Below, one piece after another: positions 3,457 through 42,050 of a DNA stretch of 43,709 nucleotides (position 1 is its first letter; each line of letters begins with the position of its first letter). The position numbers and the translations under genes were made by a program. The notes below the pieces were generated by a model that saw only the letters and a list, made by a program, of their open reading frames with translations, made no database searches and had not been told where the DNA came from. Source of the stretch: Clostridia bacterium (GTDB taxonomy: Bacteria; Bacillota; Clostridia; Oscillospirales; CAG-272); assembly GCA_017461475.1 (NCBI GenBank), contig JAFTXX010000053.1:1-43709 (forward strand), written 5' to 3'.

Positions 3457-4749
3457 ATGACAGACCTCAAAATCAAAATATTAATATTTGCCGCTGCGGT
3501 GCTGCTTGTTTTATCTGCGGTGATTCCGCTTGCGGCGGCTTTTGCGCCTGCCGCTGACCTTGTGCCGCCGCAGGCGGCAGTGGCGGACGAGCCGTCCGCA
3601 GACATTGCGGCGGCGGAGGAAATGCGTGCACTTTGGATTGCCACCGTCAACAATATAAACTTCCCGTCAAAAAAGGGGCTTTCAAGAGAAAAACTCGCCG
3701 CCGAGCTTGACGGCATCGTGGACTTTGCCGCCGAAAACGGCTTCAACGCAATAATGTTTCAGGTGCGCCCCACCGCGGATGCGCTTTACGACTCGAATTT
3801 GTTTCCCGCGTCAAAATTTGTTTCGGGCGAGTGTGGCAAAGCGGCTGATGACGGCTTTGACTGCCTCGGATATCTGCTTGAAGCCGCACACGCAAAGTCA
3901 ATCGCCGTCCACGCATGGGTAAATCCGCTACGCGTCACAAGCGGCAACACTACATACCCGCAGACCGACATCGCGGCGCTCCCAGAAAGCTCGCCCGCAC
4001 GCCAGCATGAGGAATGCGTCGTCGCTTACGCCGACGGGAAGCTGTACTTCGACGCTGGACAGCCATATGTGCGCTCTCTTGTCGCCGCGGGGGTTAAGGA
4101 AATTTGCGAAAAATACGATGTTGACGGAATTATTTTTGACGATTATTTCTATCCTTATCCGTCAGACGGCGCGGCTTTTGACGATGCGGCAACTTATGCC
4201 GAATACGGTGATGGCATGACACTTGCGGATTTCCGCCGTGACAGCGTAAACCAACTTGTAAAGCTTTGCTACGAGACAGTAAAGTCGGTTGATGAAACCG
4301 TTCAGTTCGGCGTTTCACCTTTCGGAATCTGGCAAAACTCCGACGGCAAAAACGGCGGCAGTGCGACGCGTGGGCTCGAAGCCTATGATTCCATCTATTG
4401 CGACGCGCTCGCATGGGCGCGCGGGGGATATGTCGACTACCTCGCGCCGCAGATTTACTGGTCGTTTGACACCAAGGCAGCGCCGTTTGACACGCTTGCC
4501 GAGTGGTGGAACGAGGCTCTCCGCGGCACCGGCGTGAAATATTACATCAGTTACGGCGTATACCGCTACGCCGACGGCGCAATGGAAAGCGGCGAGGTTT
4601 CGCGCCAAGTGGAATTTGCGCGCGGGCTCGACAACTGCCGCGGCGGCATGTACTACGGCTACGCCGCGCTCAAAGCAAACTCGGACGGCGTAACCGACGA
4701 GCTCGCCGAAGCATTTGAAAAGAGTGTTATATATTTGGAAGTAAATTAA
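3457..4749 (+). CDS. GHL10-family (DUF187) secreted glycoside hydrolase-like protein
   Basis: 430 residues with an N-terminal hydrophobic signal segment (residues about 6-30) followed by a TIM-barrel-like GHL10 domain. Recognisable landmarks are EEMRALWIATVNNINFPS at the domain start, FQVRPTADALY, AVHAWVNPLRV, FDAGQPYVRSL, the acidic strand DGIIFDDYFYP (D228, D229), FGVSPFGIW and YLAPQIYWSFD. Family members are extracytoplasmic enzymes linked to cell-wall or exopolysaccharide hydrolysis; the substrate here is unknown. GGGAG sits 7 bases before the ATG. The last codons GTA-AAT-TAA coincide exactly with the terminal sequence of repeat copy B, so the repeat supplies the end of the gene. Confidence 0.87.
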   Translation: MTDLKIKILIFAAAVLLVLSAVIPLAAAFAPAADLVPPQAAVADEPSADIAAAEEMRALWIATVNNINFPSKKGLSREKLAAELDGIVDFAAENGFNAIMFQVRPTADALYDSNLFPASKFVSGECGKAADDGFDCLGYLLEAAHAKSIAVHAWVNPLRVTSGNTTYPQTDIAALPESSPARQHEECVVAYADGKLYFDAGQPYVRSLVAAGVKEICEKYDVDGIIFDDYFYPYPSDGAAFDDAATYAEYGDGMTLADFRRDSVNQLVKLCYETVKSVDETVQFGVSPFGIWQNSDGKNGGSATRGLEAYDSIYCDALAWARGGYVDYLAPQIYWSFDTKAAPFDTLAEWWNEALRGTGVKYYISYGVYRYADGAMESGEVSRQVEFARGLDNCRGGMYYGYAALKANSDGVTDELAEAFEKSVIYLEVN

Positions 4750-4943
4750 TGTTTAGAGTTTAAGCAAACATCTCCCCGCGAGATCCTTCACTTCGCTACG
4801 CTACGTTCGAGGATGACAAGCGGGGGTTGTTACAGTGTGTAAATAAAGGCTTTTTCAGCACTTTGCTTAAACCCGCCCTTGTCATCCTTGAGCGTCAGCG
4901 TTGCGATCTCGGGCGGAGATGGTAGTTACATAAACACTAATTC
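4741..4943. repeat. Composite palindromic intergenic repeat, copy B (overlaps a stop codon)
   Basis: Same element as copy A in the opposite orientation: left end GTAAATTAATGTTTA, arm CTCCCCGCGAGATCCTTC, GAGGATGACAAGCGGGGG, central CTTTTTCAGCACTTTGC, then CCCGCCCTTGTCATCCTTG, GATCTCGGGCGGAGATG and a degenerate right end TAAACACTAATT. The first nine bases encode the last two residues and stop of the GHL10 gene. The rest of the gap to 5055 holds the promoter of the next gene. Confidence 0.9.
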
Positions 4944-15768: not shown

Positions 15769-16060
15769 GTAAATTAATGTTTATGTTACTGCCATCTCCG
15801 CCCGAGATCCTTCGCGCTGCGACTCGCACTGATTTAACCGCCGCAAAACGCGGCGGATGATGCGGCGGAACTAAAGTTTTCTTACGCAGGTAGTCAGAGC
15901 CGCATGGCTCAAGGATGACAAGGGCGGGATTTAGCAAAGTGCTAAAAAAGCCTTGTTTTATCGCATTGTAACAACCCCCGCTTGTCATCCTCGAACGGAG
16001 CGCAGCGAAGTGAAGGATCTCGCGGGGAGATGTTTGCTACGCCGCTAAACATTAATTTAC
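15769..16060. repeat. Composite palindromic intergenic repeat, copy D (long form)
   Basis: Same orientation as copy A with ends GTAAATTAATGTTTA and TAAACATTAATTTAC, but about 292 bp because roughly 95 bp (about 15815-15909) are inserted in the loop of the left arm, between GATCCTTCGCG and CTCAAGGATGACAAG. The insert contains its own hairpin CCGCCGC/GCGGCGG. Copy E carries the same insert. It fills most of the 589-bp gap between ackA and the ABC importer. Confidence 0.92.
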
Positions 16061-19169: not shown

Positions 19170-19255
19170 GCACAAAAATGTGAAACACCAACGGTTGTTG
19201 GTATCTTGCCTTACAATGATATGATATTATCAAAGCAACTCCCATTGTCGCCAAA

Positions 19256-19550
19256 CAAATTAATGTTTAGAGTTTAAGCAAACATCTCCCCGCAAGATCC
19301 TTCACTGCGCCTGCGGCTCCGTTCGAGGATGACAAGCGGGGGGTTGTTGCAATGCGATAAAATAAGGATTTTTTAGCACTTTGCTTAAACCCGCCCTTGT
19401 CATCCTTGAGCAATGCGGCTCTGACTACCTGCGTAAGAAAACTTTAGTTCCGCCGCATCATCCGCCGCGTTTTGCGGCGGTTAAATCAGTGCGAGCCGCA
19501 GCGCGAAGGATCTCGGGCGGAGATGTCAGTAACATAAACATTAATTTACC
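19256..19550. repeat. Composite palindromic intergenic repeat, copy E (long form)
   Basis: Same orientation as copy B. Its right half contains, in reverse complement, the roughly 95-bp insert seen in copy D (about 19410-19504), differing at only a few bases. The right end is TAAACATTAATTTACC. The 582-bp gap between the ABC ATPase and the ilv leader otherwise holds the terminator at 19142, an AT-rich stretch and the ilv promoter. Confidence 0.92.
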
Positions 19551-19643
19551 ACCCCCTGCCGTTTTGTGCGGACTTTACAAAATTACGTTGCATAAATTTG
19601 CAATTTTTTGATTTAAAACTTGCAAAAAAATGCATTAGAGGTA

Positions 19644-19672
19644 TTGACAAGGGGGCTGTATAATGATATAAT
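19644..19672 (+). promoter_or_regulatory. Sigma-A promoter of the ilv-leu operon
   Basis: Perfect TTGACA at 19644-19649, a 17-bp spacer and perfect TATAAT at 19667-19672. Transcription should start near 19679, giving a leader of about 260 bases before ilvB. An overlapping second TATAAT at 19659 is too close to the -35 box to be the main -10. Confidence 0.93.
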
Positions 19673-19714
19673 AATCAAAAATCAGCCGTTAGGCACGATT
19701 TAGAGGTAAAAACC

Positions 19715-19816
19715 ATGCATTTCGCTTATGCTCTCAACAGCATAGTCCTTATCAGCATTATTCTTGTGCTACTCGTGAAGAACACACAGGATAATGCTAA
19801 AAGTTATGCCATTTGA
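19715..19816 (+). CDS. Branched-chain leader peptide (ilv attenuator)
   Basis: A 33-codon ORF with AGAGGT 8 bases before its ATG, ending in TGA at 19814-19816. Residues 9-21 read SIVLISIILVLLV: twelve of thirteen are Ile, Leu or Val if the two Ser are discounted as one start residue and one interruption. No homologue is recognised and none is needed; the composition, the position 36 bases after the predicted transcription start and the terminator downstream identify it as a regulatory leader peptide. Ribosome stalling on the Ile/Leu/Val codons (19742-19777) would report low charged branched-chain tRNA. An alternative reading, a small membrane peptide, is possible because of the hydrophobic run but does not explain the RNA pairings. 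Confidence 0.85.
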   Translation: MHFAYALNSIVLISIILVLLVKNTQDNAKSYAI

Positions 19817-19921
19817 CGCTTAGGTGATTGAATTTTATCGGGTGTGATATGTACACCTGAAATATCAATGATTATGCAAGCCTTGTGGACTAAACTTTTA
19901 GTTCACAAGGTTTTTGTTTTT
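19763..19921 (+). promoter_or_regulatory. Transcription attenuator of the ilv-leu operon
   Basis: Four mutually exclusive segments can be aligned by hand. Segment 1 CTTGTG (19763-19768) lies in the Leu-Val codons of the leader peptide; segment 2 CACACAGG (19783-19790) is just downstream; segment 3 CCTTGTG (19881-19887) and segment 4 CACAAGG (19904-19910) are the base of the terminator stem. Segment 2 pairs with 1 or with 3 (one bulged C), and 3 pairs with 4. A ribosome stalled on segment 1 would free segment 2 to pair with 3 and prevent termination. A separate hairpin TCGGGTGT/ACACCTGA (19838-19860) lies between. No T-box motif is present. Confidence 0.75.
19881..19921 (+). terminator. Attenuator terminator hairpin before ilvB
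   Basis: A 14-bp stem CCTTGTGGACTAAA/TTTAGTTCACAAGG with a single G-U pair and a minimal loop, followed by TTTTTGTTTTT. It ends just before the AAGGAGGA ribosome site of ilvB, so readthrough is needed for operon expression. Confidence 0.9.
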
Positions 19922-19941
19922 CAAGGAGGAATTTCGGTATT

Positions 19942-21645
19942 ATGATGATGACCGGAGCAAAGATTTTGATGGAATGTCTTGTTGAGCAGGGCGTTGACAC
20001 CATCTTCGGTTACCCCGGCGGTACCATACTTAATGTATACGACGAGCTGTATGCTTACGGCGACAAGGTTAAGCACGTGCTTACCTCGCATGAGCAGGGC
20101 GCGGCGCACGCGGCTGACGGTTACGCGCGCAGCACGGGCAAGGTCGGCGTATGCTTTGCAACTTCGGGTCCCGGTGCGACAAACCTTGTTACGGGTATCG
20201 CAACCGCAAACATGGACTCCTCGCCCGTAGTTTTCATCTCCTGCAATGTAGGTGAAACCCTTATCGGCAAGGACTCTTTCCAGGAGGTAGACATCACGGG
20301 CATCACGATGCCTATCACCAAGTGTAACTATCTCGTACGAGACGTAAACAAGCTCGCCGATGTCGTTCGTGAGGCATTTGCAATTGCCCGCAGCGGACGT
20401 CCCGGCCCTGTGTTTATTGACATACTAAAGAATGTAACCGCTGACAAGGCAGAGTTTGAACCCCTGCCGAGAAGTGAGCACTTCTCAAACGGCTCGCTGA
20501 AAGATCTTATGCAGCGTTCTTCGCAGAACTTCCAGCCCCCGAAACCCGATGACAAGGATATCGACACTCTTATCGACATGATCAAGGAGTCGAAAAAGCC
20601 TATGCTTATCTGTGGCGGCGGCGTAGTTCGCGGACGTGCGCAGGACGAGTTTACCGCTTTTGCGGAGAAAATTGACGCGCCCGTTGCAATTACCCTTATG
20701 GGTGGCGGCGGTATCAGAGGCCGCAACCCGCTTGCCACCGGCATGGTCGGTATGCACGGCACAAAGGCGTCGAATATCGCGTGCAACGAGTGCGACTTGC
20801 TTATCGCTGTAGGCTGCCGTTTCTCCGATCGCGTTGCGCTTGACCCTAAGAGTTTTGCAAGTCAGGCAAAAATCGTTCAGATCGACATCGACCGCGCGGA
20901 GATAAACAAGAATGTAAAGACAGCACACCACATCATCGGCGACGCAAAGCGCGTGCTTGCAACCCTCAATGAGCGTTTCGAGCAGCAGCACCACGATGAG
21001 TGGAAAGAATATGTGTTCTCCTATCCGAGAGAGACACAGTACGACGAGTGCGAGGACTCGCTCACACCTAAGCAGATCCTCAGCGCAATTGCCGAGCTTT
21101 GCCCGCAGGACACAATTGTTGCAACCGATGTAGGTCAGCACCAGATGTGGGCAATACAGCATTTCCGCTTTGACTATCCGGGTCAGCTCCTCACCTCGGG
21201 CGGTTTCGGCACGATGGGCTTCGGCCTCGGCGCGGCAATAGGCGCTAAGGTCGGCAACCCCGAAAAGACCGTTATACATATCACGGGCGACGGCTCTTTC
21301 AGAATGAACTGCAACGAGCTTGCAACCGAGGAACATTACGACATCCCCGTAATTACCTTCATATTTAATAATAAGACGCTCGGCATGGTTCGCCAGTGGC
21401 AGACGCTTATCTATGACAAGCATTATTCGCAGACAACACTTACCCACGGTCCCGACTTTGTAAAGCTTGCAGAGGCATACGGACTTCGCGGTCAGCGTGT
21501 TTGCACCGAGGAAGCGCTCAGAGCCGCTATCAAGGACGCGCTTGAGTACGGTCACGGATACGTTATCGACTGTGTAATTGATACCGACGAGATGGTTCGT
21601 CCCATGGTCGGCGGCGGCAGCCATATAACCAAGTTTATCGTATAA
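19942..21645 (+). CDS. ilvB: Acetolactate synthase, large (catalytic) subunit
   Basis: 567 residues, standard length. This thiamine-diphosphate enzyme condenses two pyruvates, or pyruvate with 2-oxobutyrate, in the first common step of Val/Leu and Ile synthesis. The N-terminal PYR domain has FGYPGGTILNVYDEL and the catalytic Glu in TSHEQGAAHAADGYAR; the middle domain has the FAD-site region; the C-terminal PP domain has the ThDP motif GDGSFRMNCNELATEE ending in FNN, and MVRQWQTLIYDKHYSQT. The first of three consecutive Met codons is taken; AAGGAGGA lies about 12 bases upstream, so the second or third Met is also possible. First gene of the operon. Confidence 0.97.
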   Translation: MMMTGAKILMECLVEQGVDTIFGYPGGTILNVYDELYAYGDKVKHVLTSHEQGAAHAADGYARSTGKVGVCFATSGPGATNLVTGIATANMDSSPVVFISCNVGETLIGKDSFQEVDITGITMPITKCNYLVRDVNKLADVVREAFAIARSGRPGPVFIDILKNVTADKAEFEPLPRSEHFSNGSLKDLMQRSSQNFQPPKPDDKDIDTLIDMIKESKKPMLICGGGVVRGRAQDEFTAFAEKIDAPVAITLMGGGGIRGRNPLATGMVGMHGTKASNIACNECDLLIAVGCRFSDRVALDPKSFASQAKIVQIDIDRAEINKNVKTAHHIIGDAKRVLATLNERFEQQHHDEWKEYVFSYPRETQYDECEDSLTPKQILSAIAELCPQDTIVATDVGQHQMWAIQHFRFDYPGQLLTSGGFGTMGFGLGAAIGAKVGNPEKTVIHITGDGSFRMNCNELATEEHYDIPVITFIFNNKTLGMVRQWQTLIYDKHYSQTTLTHGPDFVKLAEAYGLRGQRVCTEEALRAAIKDALEYGHGYVIDCVIDTDEMVRPMVGGGSHITKFIV

Positions 21646-21658
21646 TGGGGGTAGAAAC

Positions 21659-23210
<1,552 letters not shown>

Positions 23211-23215
23211 TTTTC

Positions 23216-23365
23216 GCAAATTGCCAAACGGCAATTTGCTACCGACACACGCCGCATGGCGTATATCACTTGCCCATAGGGCAAATATCACGCGCCTATA
23301 GGCGCATATCACAAATCGCAGAGCGATTTATATCACTGTAAGGATATGCATCGCATATCCTTACA
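23216..23365 (+). repeat. Tandem hairpin array punctuated by ATATCAC heptamers (ilvC-ilvD spacer)
   Basis: Six perfect hairpins in 150 bases: GCAAATTGCC/GGCAATTTGC (23216-23239), ACGCC/GGCGT (23249-23262), TTGCCC/GGGCAA (23270-23284), GCGCCTA/TAGGCGC (23292-23305), AAATCGC/GCGATTT (23313-23329) and TGTAAGGATATGC/GCATATCCTTACA (23337-23365). The last five are separated by exact copies of ATATCAC at 23263, 23285, 23306 and 23330. The stems differ in sequence while the heptamer is invariant. It lies within the operon, just before the ilvD ribosome site, with no T run that would make it a terminator. Confidence 0.9.
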
Positions 23366-23391
23366 CGATTCCTTTGGAGGGTTTTTGTTTT

Positions 23392-25056
23392 ATGAATTCG
23401 GAAAACATCAAGCACGGTATTGAACGTGCGCCTAACAGAAGCTTGCTTTTTGCTCTCGGACTTACCGAGGAGGAGATGAACCGTCCTATCGTCGGTATCG
23501 TTTCTTCCTATAATGAAATCGTTCCCGGTCACATGCACCTAGACAAGATCACCGAGGCTGTAAAGGCAGGAGTTCGCCTTGCGGGCGGCACACCTATCAT
23601 GTTCCCCGCAATCGCAGTTTGCGACGGTATCGCAATGGGACATGTCGGAATGAAGTATTCGCTTGTTACCCGTGACCTAATTGCCGATTCCACCGAGGCT
23701 ATGGTTATGGCGCATCAGTTCGACGGTCTTGTTATGATTCCTAACTGCGACAAAAACGTTCCGGGTCTTCTCATGGCGTCTGCAAGACTTAATATCCCGA
23801 CAATTTTCTGTTCGGGCGGTCCTATGCTTGCAGGTCACCTTGAGGATGGTCGCCGTACCTGCCTCAGCCATATGTTTGAGGCTGTCGGCGCTTATCATGC
23901 AGGCAATCTCGACGAGTGCGGCGTGAGGGACTACGAAGAAAACGCTTGTCCCTCATGCGGCTCTTGCTCGGGTATGTACACCGCAAACTCGATGAACTGT
24001 CTTACCGAGGCTATCGGTATGGCGCTGTCGGGCAACGGTACCATTCCCGCTCCGCTTTCTGCAAGACTCAGACTTGCAAAGCACGCGGGCATGCAGATAA
24101 TGGAGCTTATCAAAAAGGATATCCGTCCCCGCGATATTATGACCGAGGCGGCTTTCCACAATGCCGAAACTGTCGACATGGCACTCGGTTGCTCCACAAA
24201 TACAATGCTTCACCTTCCCGCAATTGCGCATGAGGCGGGCATTGAGATAAGCCTTGATATGTCTAACGAAATCAGCAGAAAGACTCCCAATCTCTGTCAC
24301 CTCGCACCTGCGGGCGACACCTTTATGGAAGACCTTGAGAGAGCCGGCGGAGTTTATGCCGTTATGAAGGAGCTCACAAAGAAGAATCTGCTTGACACTT
24401 CGGTTATGACCGTAACAGGCAAGACCATGGAGGAAAATCTCTGTGGCGTTACAAACAAGAACCCCGAGATCATCCGTCCCATTGACAATCCCTTTTCAAA
24501 CTTCGGCGGTATCGCTGTGCTTAAAGGCAACCTTGCGCCGAACGGCTGTGTTGTAAAGCAGTCTGCTGTCGCACCCGAAATGATGCAGCATACAGGCCCC
24601 GCAAGAGTATTTGATTCCGAGGAAGATGCAATTGCTTCTATCTACGCGGGCAACATCAAGGCGGGCGACGTTGTGGTTATCCGCTACGAAGGACCTCGTG
24701 GCGGCCCCGGTATGCGTGAAATGCTCAACCCCACATCCGCAATCTGCGGCATGGGCCTCGGCGAGAGCGTTGCGCTTATCACCGACGGACGTTTCAGCGG
24801 TGCAACCCGCGGCGCGGCTATAGGACATGTAAGTCCCGAGGCTGCTGCAGGCGGCAACATTGCGCTTGTCGAAGAGGGAGACACAATTTCCATTGACATT
24901 ACAAATTGTAAGATAACACTTGAAGTAACCGACGAAGTTTTAGCCGAGCGCAGAGCGAATTGGACAGCCCCCGCACCCAAGGTGACCACAGGCTACGCCG
25001 CACGCTATGCAAAGCTCGTGACTTCTGCCGACCGCGGCGCGGTACTGGAAGTTTAA
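23392..25056 (+). CDS. ilvD: Dihydroxy-acid dehydratase
   Basis: 554 residues, normal length. This iron-sulfur enzyme dehydrates dihydroxyisovalerate and dihydroxymethylvalerate to the 2-oxo acids. The three cluster cysteines are in [33 protein letters not shown] and further in the chain near [12 protein letters not shown]; the C-terminus has [20 protein letters not shown]. The ATG at 23392 (MNSENIKHG) is chosen over one 18 bases upstream because it matches the family and has GGAGGG about 11 bases before it. It is separated from ilvC by 181 bases that are almost entirely hairpins. Confidence 0.97.
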
Positions 25057-25065
25057 GGAGAAAAA

Positions 25066-26595
<1,530 letters not shown>

Positions 26596-26597
26596 CC

Positions 26598-27863
26598 ATG
26601 GGTATGACAATGACACAAAAGATCCTCGCGGCTCACGCAGGTCTCGACTCTGTTAAAGCAGGCGACCTCATAGAAGCAAAGCTGGATCTGGTACTCGGCA
26701 ACGACGTTACCACCCCCGTTGCAGTCAAGGTTTTTGACGACGCGGGTTTCACAAAGGTGTTTGACAAGGACAGAATCGCAATTGTCCTCGACCACTACAC
26801 CCCTTGCAAGGACATCAAGTCCGCAGAACTCTGCGCAACCGCACGCGAGTTTGCAAAGAGATTTAACATTACTCACCTTTATGACGTAGGATGCGTAGGC
26901 ATTGAGCACGCGCTCCTCCCCGAGAAAGGTCTTGTCGGCCCCGGCGACTGCATTATCGGCGCAGACTCTCACACCTGTACATACGGTGCGCTCGGCGCAT
27001 TCTCCACAGGTGTAGGTTCCACTGACATGGCGGCAGGTATGGCGGCAGGCGAGAACTGGTTCAAGGTTCCCTCCGCTATCAAGGTAAACCTTGTCGGCAA
27101 ACTTCAGAAGTATGTCAGCGGCAAGGACGTTATCCTCCACCTCATCGGCCTTATCGGCGTTGACGGTGCGCTTTACAAGTCCATTGAGTTTGCAGGCGAA
27201 GGCGTTGCGGAACTTTCCATGGACGACCGCTTCACCATTGCAAACATGGCAATCGAAGCAGGCGGCAAAAACGGCATTTTCCCCGTAGACGAAAAGACTA
27301 TGGAGTATGTAAAAGACCGTTTCCAGCGTGAAGTCAAGATTTTCGAGGCTGACGCTGATGCAGAGTACGAGAGCGAAGTTACCATTGACCTCTCCACTCT
27401 TAAACCTACCGTTTCTCTCCCTCACCTTCCTTCCAACACAAAGACCATTGACGAAGTCAAGGGTATGCACATCGACCAGTGCGTAATCGGCTCCTGCACA
27501 AACGGACGTATCTCCGACCTTCGTGCGGCTGCTGAAATTATGAAGGGCAGAACCGTTGCCCCCGGCGTTCGCTGCATCGTTATCCCCGCAACCCAGGAAG
27601 TTTATATGCAGTCTATCAAGGAAGGTCTCACCGAGATCTTCATAAGTGCCGGATGTGCGGTTTCCACACCTACATGCGGCCCTTGCCTCGGCGGTCACAT
27701 GGGCGTTATGAGCGCGGGCGAGCGCGCGGTTGCCACAACCAACCGTAACTTCGTCGGTAGAATGGGTCACGTAAAGAGCGAAGTTGTGCTTGCAAGCCCT
27801 GCAATTGCGGCGGCAAGCGCAATCAAGGGATGCATGGCATCGCCCGAAGATTTGGAGGGTTAA
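26598..27863 (+). CDS. leuC: 3-isopropylmalate dehydratase, large subunit
   Basis: 421 residues, the short archaeal/clostridial type of the aconitase-like large subunit, which holds a 4Fe-4S cluster. Cluster cysteines are in [13 protein letters not shown] and in [14 protein letters not shown]; other landmarks are [37 protein letters not shown] and the C-terminal [10 protein letters not shown]. It works with LeuD to convert 2-isopropylmalate to 3-isopropylmalate. The first ATG (CACAGGAG upstream) is used; it begins two bases after the leuA stop. Confidence 0.96.
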
Positions 27864-27866
27864 AAA

Positions 27867-28355
27867 ATGGCACAAGGAACAGTTTTTAAATACGGTGACA
27901 ATGTAGACACCGACGTAATTATCCCCGCAAGATACCTCAATGCACCGTCTCCCGAGGATCTCGCAAAGCACTGCATGGAAGACATCGACATCGACTTTGT
28001 CAAAAACGTTAAGGCTGGCGACATCATGGTCGGCGGCGCAAACTTCGGCTGCGGTTCTTCCCGCGAGCACGCGCCCATCGCTATCCGCGCAAGCGGCATT
28101 TCCTGCGTTATCGCAAAGAGTTTCGCGCGTATTTTCTACCGCAATGCGATAAACATCGGCTTCCCGATTCTTGAGTGTCCTGAGGCTGTTGACAAGATCA
28201 ATGCAGGCGACACCGTTTCGGTTGATTTTGCAACAGGTGTCATCACCGACGAGACCACGGGCGAGACCTTTAAGGCAATGGCTTTCCCCGCGTTCATCAA
28301 CGGCATTATCGAAGCGGGCGGACTTCTTCCTTATATTAAAGCAAAGCAAAACTAA
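27867..28355 (+). CDS. leuD: 3-isopropylmalate dehydratase, small subunit
   Basis: 162 residues, the short small-subunit form that partners a 420-residue LeuC. Motifs: [15 protein letters not shown] at the N-terminus and [18 protein letters not shown] at the swivel-domain active site. Three bases separate it from leuC, and GGAGG of its ribosome site lies in the last leuC codons. Confidence 0.96.
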
Positions 28356-28367
28356 GGAGTTATAACA

Positions 28368-29441
28368 ATGGAATTCAATATAGCATTGGTAAAGGGTGAC
28401 GGTATCGGCCCCGAGATAGTTGACGGCGCTGTTGAGGTGCTCAAAGTTATCGGTGAAAAGTACGGTCACAAGTTCAATTTCAAGGAATATCTTGCAGGCG
28501 GCTGCGCAATCGACGCAACAGGTGAACCTCTTCCCGCTGAGACGGTTGAGGGATGCAAGAACAGCGACAGCGTTCTTCTCGGCGCTGTAGGCGGACCCAA
28601 GTGGGACACTCTCCCCGGTAACATCCGCCCCGAAAAGGCGCTGCTCGGACTCAGAGCGGCTCTCGGCCTTTTCACAAATCTTCGCCCTGCGAAAATCTAT
28701 CCTGCACTCGCAGGTGCTTGCACTCTCCGCCCCGATATTATCGAGCGCGGATTTGACCTTGTTATCGTTCGCGAGCTTACCGGCGGTATCTACTTCGGCG
28801 AGCGCGGCAGACGCGAGGGCAAGTACGGCCCCGAGGCTTATGACACCGAGGCTTACAGCGTAATGGAGATTGAGCGTATCGCCCGCGTTGCATTCGAGAC
28901 CGCTATGAAGCGCCGCAAGAATGTCATTTCCATTGACAAGGCAAACGTTCTCGAGACCTCTCGCCTTTGGAGAGAGACAGTACACCGCATTGCCGAGGAG
29001 TATCCCGAGGTTGAGTGCACCGATATGCTCGTTGATAACGCAGCAATGCAGCTCGTTCGCGACCCCTCCCGCTTTGACGTTGTCGTAACTTCCAATATGT
29101 TCGGCGACATCCTCTCCGACGAGGCTTCGCAGATCACAGGCTCCATCGGACTTCTCGCATCTTCCTCTCTCGGCGAGGGCAAGTGCGGTCTTTACGAGCC
29201 TATCCACGGCTCCGCACCCGACATCGCGGGACAGAATAAGGCAAACCCCATTGCCACCATTCTTTCCGCTGCAATGATGCTCCGTTACTCCTTCGGTCTC
29301 ACCAAAGAGGCTGACGCGATTGAAAAGGCAGTTAACGAAACTCTCGAAGCAGGCGTTCGCACAGCGGACATCGTAGGCGACAGCGGCGCAACTCCCGTAA
29401 CCTGCACCGGCATGACCGCAGAAATTATCTCTCGTCTCTAA
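28368..29441 (+). CDS. leuB: 3-isopropylmalate dehydrogenase
   Basis: 357 residues. It oxidises and decarboxylates 3-isopropylmalate with NAD+ to the leucine 2-oxo acid. The family pattern is clear: [89 protein letters not shown] and [21 protein letters not shown] (substrate, Mg and NAD sites). AAGGAG lies 7 bases before the ATG; 12 bases separate it from leuD. Confidence 0.97.
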
Positions 29442-41844: not shown

Positions 41845-42050
41845 GTAAATTATTGTTTAGTGTTCAAATAAACATCTCCCCGCAAGATCCTTCACTCCGC
41901 TACGCTCCGTTCGAGGATGACAAGCGGGGGTTGTCGCAGTGCGATAAAATAAGCCTTTTTCAGCACTCTGCTCAAACCCGCCCTTGTCATCCTTGAGCGT
42001 AAGCGAAGGATCTCGGGCGGAGATGGCAGTAACATAAACATTTATTTACC
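41845..42050. repeat. Composite palindromic intergenic repeat, copy F
   Basis: Orientation as copy B: GTAAATTATTGTTTA at the left, CTCCCCGCAAGATCCTTCAC, GAGGATGACAAGCGGGGG, CCCGCCCTTGTCATCCTTG, GATCTCGGGCGGAGATG and TAAACATTTATTTACC at the right. It lies between two terminators of convergent genes and fills the 307-bp gap. Confidence 0.92.

Follow-up and report, generated by a model that had tools for sequence, protein, structure and literature searches.

The ilv-leu operon in the 43,709-nt stretch of Clostridia DNA analyzed here (the window) is very probably controlled by a ribosome-mediated transcription attenuator with a predicted response to amino acids. A leader ORF with its run of regulatory codons, three covarying RNA helices and their association with the operon genes emerge from sequence comparison. 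All features lie on the forward strand. A sigma-70 type promoter, TTGACA-17-TATAAT (19644..19672), was assigned by consensus match alone, agreeing at 12 of 12 positions. Downstream we read a Shine-Dalgarno-like AGAGGT (19702..19707), separated by a 7 nt spacer from the ATG at 19715, and a leader ORF of 33 codons plus TGA (MHFAYALNSIVLISIILVLLVKNTQDNAKSYAI; 19715..19816). An intrinsic terminator hairpin (19878..19913; 16 pairs and -20.7 kcal/mol upon folding) is followed by a T-rich tail and by the ribosome-binding site of ilvB, AAGGAGG (19923..19929), with 28 nt between the end of the hairpin and the ilvB start. The region from 19679 to 19941 folds with a z-score of -4.7, and 0 of 200 shuffled sequences were as stable. 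The promoter, the leader ORF and the terminator with its T run were all found where the original prediction had placed them, as were the four short motifs from which it had derived its pairings.

The regulated genes are arranged in the order ilvB-ilvN-ilvC-ilvD-leuA-leuC-leuD-leuB, spanning 19942-29441. The first, ilvB (19942..21645), encodes the large subunit of acetolactate synthase (TIGR00118, 696 bits; cutoff 538), and each of the remaining seven (21659..29441) scored over its NCBIfam cutoff. To compare loci, we scanned named genomes with IlvB, which yielded at least 80 loci, or 81 with the window. By inspection for a leader ORF with a run of Ile/Leu/Val (ILV) codons and the same downstream motifs, 57 of the 81 IlvB loci among those listed carry the element; within the genus, the region is held by 5 of 6 genomes, including the genome of the window. 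We analyzed 56 loci, whose selection relied in part on an ILV filter and in part on visual inspection, and did not count L060, in which the leader is located at a much greater distance upstream. Alignment A1 comprises 41 of the 56 loci; sequences nearly identical to others and the most divergent ones were left out.

Codons 10-21 of the leader ORF (IVLISIILVLLV; 19742..19777) constitute the putative regulatory run. Eleven of these 12 codons specify Ile, Leu or Val, and no other among 58,427 stop-free 12-codon stretches in the six frames of the window reached 11 or more. Around segment 1 of the RNA (defined below), the 56 loci contain on average 8.11 ILV codons per 12 in the ORF frame, and the averages for the alternative frames are 2.41 and 0.41; the in-frame figures benefit from the fact that an ILV-rich ORF was among the grounds for selecting loci. 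Stop codons occur there in 0 of 56 loci in the ORF frame and in 42 and 15 in the others. Ser or Gly fills most of the column that is tied to the GC of the stem, and the neighboring residues swap among Ile, Leu and Val. The rare Leu codon CTA, which is codon 19 in the window, makes up 23% of Leu codons in the leaders (68 of 293) compared to 1% in the corresponding ilvB genes (25 of 2241); the Fisher value for this difference is a guide only, because the rows are related. CTA is present in 39 of 56 leaders, with 38 of the 68 occurrences at two codon positions of the run, and accounts for 8 of 547 Leu codons in 16 genes of the window. As a control, leader frame +1 holds 45 CTA, which by eye resemble the GCTAAA of segment 2, and frame +2 holds none. 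The Salmonella leu attenuator uses CUA codons as well, and their replacement by CUG lowered the sensitivity of the system (PMC1183508). The leader ORF of the window looks translated, presumably also in vivo.

We next describe the pairings between four RNA segments, designated 1:2, 2:3 and 3:4. In 1:2, an inner strand of segment 1, GCATTATTCT (19755..19764, within the Ser-Ile-Ile-Leu codons), pairs with AGGATAATGC of segment 2 (19788..19797), with 87.8% of cells paired. An outer strand, GCATA (19740..19744), pairs with 19805-19809; this outer helix is weaker (68% of cells paired), with double changes in 5 of 5 pairs. The antiterminator, 2:3, is formed by CTAAAAGTT of segment 2 (19797..19805) and AACTTTTAG (19893..19901), the latter comprising the terminator loop and the top of the 3' arm. 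The terminator hairpin itself represents 3:4. Antiterminator and terminator share 19893-19901 and are thus mutually exclusive. The pairings 1:2 and 2:3 have only bases 19797 and 19805 in common, and inner 1:2 and 2:3 a single base.

Support for these pairings was obtained from swap tests, in which the pairing energy of each segment with its own partner was compared with that obtained when partners were permuted among the 56 loci, using distinct segment pairs whose limits were alignment columns defined on the window sequence. For none of the three helices was any permutation as good as the own pairing. For 2:3 (47 distinct pairs of 56), the own mean was -11.49 versus -7.70 kcal/mol upon permutation (sd 0.33; z -11.6; 0 of 2000 permutations), for inner 1:2 z was -6.2 (n=51), for extended 1:2 -7.0 (n=53) and for the lower terminator stem of 3:4 -10.2 (n=44), a design in which related rows favor positive results because permutation breaks kinship. 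The 2:3 pairing was also recovered in 19 loci that are not part of the alignment (-12.37 versus -7.34 kcal/mol; z -8.1; 0 of 5000), a result favored by the choice of segments by eye after the pairing had been seen. An inner antiterminator helix, TTTGCA:TGCAAA, gave a weak z of -2.7 and is poor in the window. Segment 2 varies among loci (window, GCTAAAAGTTATGCC; L030, GCTGAAAGTTATGCC; L016, GCCAAAAGTGATGCC; L015, GTTAATGTT; L063, GCTAAATGTT), and the terminator apex changes alongside it from AACTTTTAG in the window to AACTTTCAG, AACTTTTGG, AACATTAAC and AACGTTTAGC, respectively.

Covariation was analyzed in the 41 aligned sequences, in which 81.2% (1:2), 85.6% (2:3) and 87.2% (3:4) of cells were paired. 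The covariation scores of 0.313, 0.204 and 0.481 exceeded all 500 shuffles in each case, and registers with a slid partner, which retain kinship, reached at most 0.161, 0.101 and 0.178, respectively. Double changes were seen in 15 of 16 pairs of the terminator. For 2:3, six pairs changed on both sides; 38 of 500 shuffles reached this number, one register with a slid partner gave seven, and the number of pair types was ordinary (240 of 500 shuffles as high); thus, two of five covariation measures for this helix are within the range of shuffles. The 3:4 pairing had been predicted correctly from the window alone, and for 1:2 the part examined and found to be conserved is the core GCATTATTCT:AGGATAATGC, next to which the CTTGTG:CACACAGG part of the original prediction is a candidate. 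Alignment of the leaders of relatives showed a conserved ILV codon run together with covariation of 1:2, 2:3 (in the corrected pairing given above) and 3:4, supporting, at the level of sequence, the original prediction that stalling on Ile, Leu or Val codons prevents termination.

To explore how ribosome position may affect these structures, we folded partial transcripts with the bases covered by the ribosome masked and recorded the mean pair probability of 2:3. With transcripts ending at 19901 or 19905, 2:3 had a probability of 0.96-0.97 at all seven A-site positions tried from I10 to K22. With the end at 19905, this value fell to 0.02 with Q25 in the A site and to 0 at A28, Y31 and the stop codon. 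Without a ribosome, 1:2 formed with a probability of 0.92; 2:3 had 0.33 in the transcript ending at 19901 and dropped to 0.00 in the one ending at 19905, in which the upper terminator was already present. When the A site was at Y5 or L7, masking the outer 1:2 helix, inner 1:2 (0.90-0.92) was populated alongside 2:3 (0.58-0.78) until 19905. The outer helix therefore seems to protect segment 2, since inner 1:2 and 2:3 coexist once it is masked. At 19908, 2:3 with ribosomes stalled at L17 and L19 was down to 0.38-0.40, and from 19911 on the terminator was favored at equilibrium in every ribosome state. Over the 56 loci, the median for 2:3 was 0.94 with a stalled ribosome and 0.00 both at the stop codon and without a ribosome. 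Values above 0.5 were obtained in 40 of 56 loci in the stalled state (16 were at 0.5 or below), in 7 without a ribosome and in 0 at the stop codon. In 54 of 56 loci 2:3 was highest when the ribosome was stalled, L015 and L047 showing the opposite direction. That the structure of partial transcripts depends on the position of the ribosome is thus a computed result.

These data are consistent with the following mechanism. A shortage of charged tRNA for Ile, Leu or Val would cause the ribosome to stall within codons 10-21 and mask segment 1. Segment 2 (CTAAAAGTT), left free, would pair with the nascent terminator apex (AACTTTTAG) before the polymerase completes the 3' arm, so that the terminator could not close and transcription would proceed into ilvB. 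Because equilibrium favors the full-length terminator in all states, antitermination would have to be kinetic, with segment 2 capturing the loop and the initial bases of the 3' arm during their emergence from the polymerase. With ample amino acids, the ribosome would reach the stop codon and mask segment 2, allowing the terminator to form. Without a ribosome, the full 1:2 hairpin, for which the outer helix matters, would disfavor 2:3, and the terminator would again form. Codons for all three amino acids are found inside the effective zone, and sensing of all three is therefore likely.

Other readings of the locus were weighed against the attenuator just described. The original prediction had proposed the same kind of attenuator with the layout of the enterobacterial his and ilv attenuators, in which segment 3 is the 5' arm of the terminator. 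Its antiterminator, CACACAGG (19783-19790) with CCTTGTG (19881-19887), can form in the window sequence with one bulge. In relatives, this pairing is without support: the own mean was -3.11 versus -3.43 kcal/mol upon swapping (z +1.5, n=50), and 1865 of 2000 permutations were as good or better, as opposed to 0 of 2000 for CTAAAAGTT:AACTTTTAG. We consider it highly improbable as the antiterminator. The layout is unlike that of the enterobacterial his and ilv attenuators, because 19797-19805 pairs with 19893-19901. In 49 of 56 loci, most of the paired terminator bases belong to the loop and 3' arm (totals of 142 bases in the 5' arm, 272 in the loop and 165 in the 3' arm).

A leader that senses tRNA or a metabolite, as a T-box or riboswitch would, with the ORF being incidental, is conceivable in that T-boxes do precede ilv in some relatives (six loci over the gathering score) and one occurs elsewhere in the genome of the window. 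The ORF frame, rich in ILV codons and enriched in the rare Leu codon CTA, argues against this. Moreover, Rfam 15 contained no family that matched the locus at gathering score; the sole match at that score in the window was Gut-1, located elsewhere. A low-threshold scan of 19550-20000 returned nine sub-gathering matches, all to unrelated families (microRNAs, a snoRNA, an lncRNA, an Aggregatibacter sRNA and SL1), and the best of these, mir-308 (E 0.0078), was the only one below E 1 and was taken as chance. The T-box family RF00230 was without a match at the locus in both scans, in agreement with the original prediction that no T-box is visible. We regard a sensor of this type as extremely unlikely. 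The peptide of 33 residues is hydrophobic and has its own sequence resembling a ribosome-binding site, as would suit a functional small membrane protein followed by an ordinary intergenic terminator. However, of the three helices with covariation, 1:2 and 2:3 involve bases within the ORF, the RNA of segment 2 remains alike in 14 of 56 loci (e.g. L019 and L021) in which the ORF ends before, or at most 9 nt past, the start of the segment, and the residues swap among Ile, Leu and Val. On these grounds the small-protein reading, which we judge very unlikely, was rejected.

The distribution of the attenuator was investigated with a covariance model, R1, built from the 41 rows of A1. R1 matched 53 of the 81 listed loci, 41 of which are the rows used to build it, at E <=0.001 on the expected strand. 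It was then run on 196 genomes of the family, 394 of the order, 391 of the class and 398 of the phylum, in overlapping sets and with strict filters. Genomes with a match at E <=0.001 numbered 23, 34, 10 and 11, respectively. R1 scored at least 40 bits at 25 loci, many of which had served for training or are nearly identical to loci that had. In all 25, the element immediately precedes ilvB (23), leuA (1) or a LeuA-like gene with 32% identity (1). Ten of the 25 are neither training rows nor near copies (L097-L102, L117-L119 and L135), with two groups of sister species among them, and in eight of these ten IlvB is 48-52% identical to that of the window. L116 is related to L015, one of the training rows.

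Of 38 fetched matches below 40 bits, eight precede ilvB or LeuA-like genes and 30 are without a nearby gene for any of the eight operon proteins; four further matches in the order, below 30 bits, are outside these 38. Weak R1 matches without operon genes are probably chance terminators. When 24 loci were screened for an ILV-rich ORF with a motif resembling a ribosome-binding site, 18 of 20 loci before ilvB- or leuA-type genes passed; this filter is unspecific, because two of four loci without such genes passed too. Occurrence of the element is patchy, with 173 of the 196 sampled family genomes lacking an R1 match. In L051, L070, L071 and L085, ilvB follows what by eye is a leuB-like end, and for L051 R1 found the element before leuA on a contig of equal length (L119). 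Other families of the class contain weaker relatives of the element (L135, L136 and L140), which likewise have ILV-rich leaders and precede LeuA-like genes of 25-32% identity.

T-boxes were labeled by a motif regular expression, which marked ten loci for the tree. The Rfam gathering score was passed by 6 of 10 ilv loci so labeled and by 0 of 10 other loci scanned; the label of L066 is unsure, because this locus also has a weak R1 match (26.1 bits). In the genome of the window, which is ~76% complete, the sole T-box match over the cut-off (L087, 1501-1742) precedes an ORF whose sequence looks by eye like TrpB; T-boxes are therefore not absent from this genome. We also built a quick tree from 81 IlvB rows, without bootstrap. 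On it, the attenuator label changes 7 times compared to a shuffled mean of 20.9, and well-supported branches force at least three of these changes; the T-box label changes 3 times compared to 9.6, with at least two forced. These changes indicate that the type of control has changed along the gene tree. We lean somewhat towards a single old branched-chain amino acid (BCAA) attenuator RNA family, in which the apex is captured at the last moment, that occurs in several families of Clostridia, mostly before ilvB and in some before leuA, and that has been exchanged with T-box control.

Two kinds of repeats were observed in the window. Just upstream of the promoter lies an interspersed repeat (19255-19545), with at least 102 matching pieces in the same genome among the 40 of 163 candidate stretches that were scored. 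Many of its copies match only parts 3-157 and 249-291, and it contains internal inverted repeats; further copies in the window are found near 1080-1278, 4743-4941, 15773-16058 and 41847-42045. This repeat resembles a short mobile element without coding capacity. The Gut-1 match (RF01706; 23250-23350) is located in the gap between ilvC and ilvD, within short hairpins spaced by ATATCAC. Given at least 33 Gut-1 matches in the genome, 21 of them over the cut-off, it looks here like a dispersed hairpin repeat and not like one RNA gene.

An independent use of ribosome-stalling attenuation had been put forward as notable, which overstated its novelty, since ilv leader attenuators are known in Listeria (PMC5864092) and Staphylococcus (PMC5794164). 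The ribosome-mediated ilv attenuator of Listeria monocytogenes was shown with mutants, and that of Staphylococcus is supported by suppressor mutants and reporters. A review describes the mechanism as common for the ilv operon of Gram-positive bacteria, with predictions for Lactococcus and Streptococcus (PMC6123439). Histidine leader-peptide attenuators have been predicted in C. difficile (PMC9413887, PMC4833913) and His leaders reported in bacilli (PMC2965389). In the literature searched, mostly papers readable without subscription, we found no report of a BCAA or ilv leader-peptide attenuator in Clostridia. The element is apparently a conserved, uncatalogued RNA family. The new aspects are the family itself, to which Rfam offers no match, its distribution in Clostridia and the antiterminator that straddles the terminator apex; the kind of attenuator is already known. 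If the response to amino acids is as the anatomy predicts, ilv attenuation, experimentally supported in Bacilli, would extend to mostly uncultured Clostridia, as a defined RNA family open to automatic annotation. The same operon would be under a leader peptide or a T-box depending on lineage, allowing the exchange of sensing systems to be studied. With the apex-straddling antiterminator, the latest moment at which antitermination can still be achieved could be tested sharply and at low cost.

Comparison with known systems places the element among several relatives by mechanism or target. Listeria Rli60 (PMC5864092), compared by layout, is alike in having a leader ORF with BCAA codons and mutually exclusive terminator and antiterminator structures at an ilv-leu operon in Bacillota; it differs in that its leader has 13 residues, precedes ilvD and is found in Bacilli. 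The ilvD leader of Staphylococcus aureus (PMC5794164) likewise has a BCAA-rich leader peptide and a terminator before ilv-leu. In contrast, its peptide has 26 residues, and its proposed antiterminator binds the U tail of the terminator, leaving the hairpin intact. The Clostridioides His attenuators (PMC9413887, PMC4833913) share predicted leader-peptide attenuation in Clostridia and differ in operon and codons, which are those for histidine. The ilv T-box leaders of Bacillota (RF00230) control the same target operon in related lineages (six loci), whereas the locus in the window is without a T-box match. With the enterobacterial ilv, leu and his attenuators in general the element shares the four-segment logic with regulatory codons in segment 1. 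The antiterminator of those systems, however, uses the 5' arm of the terminator, whereas that described here uses mainly the loop and the top of the 3' arm. Use of the rare Leu codon CUA is a further feature in common with the leu attenuator (PMC1183508).
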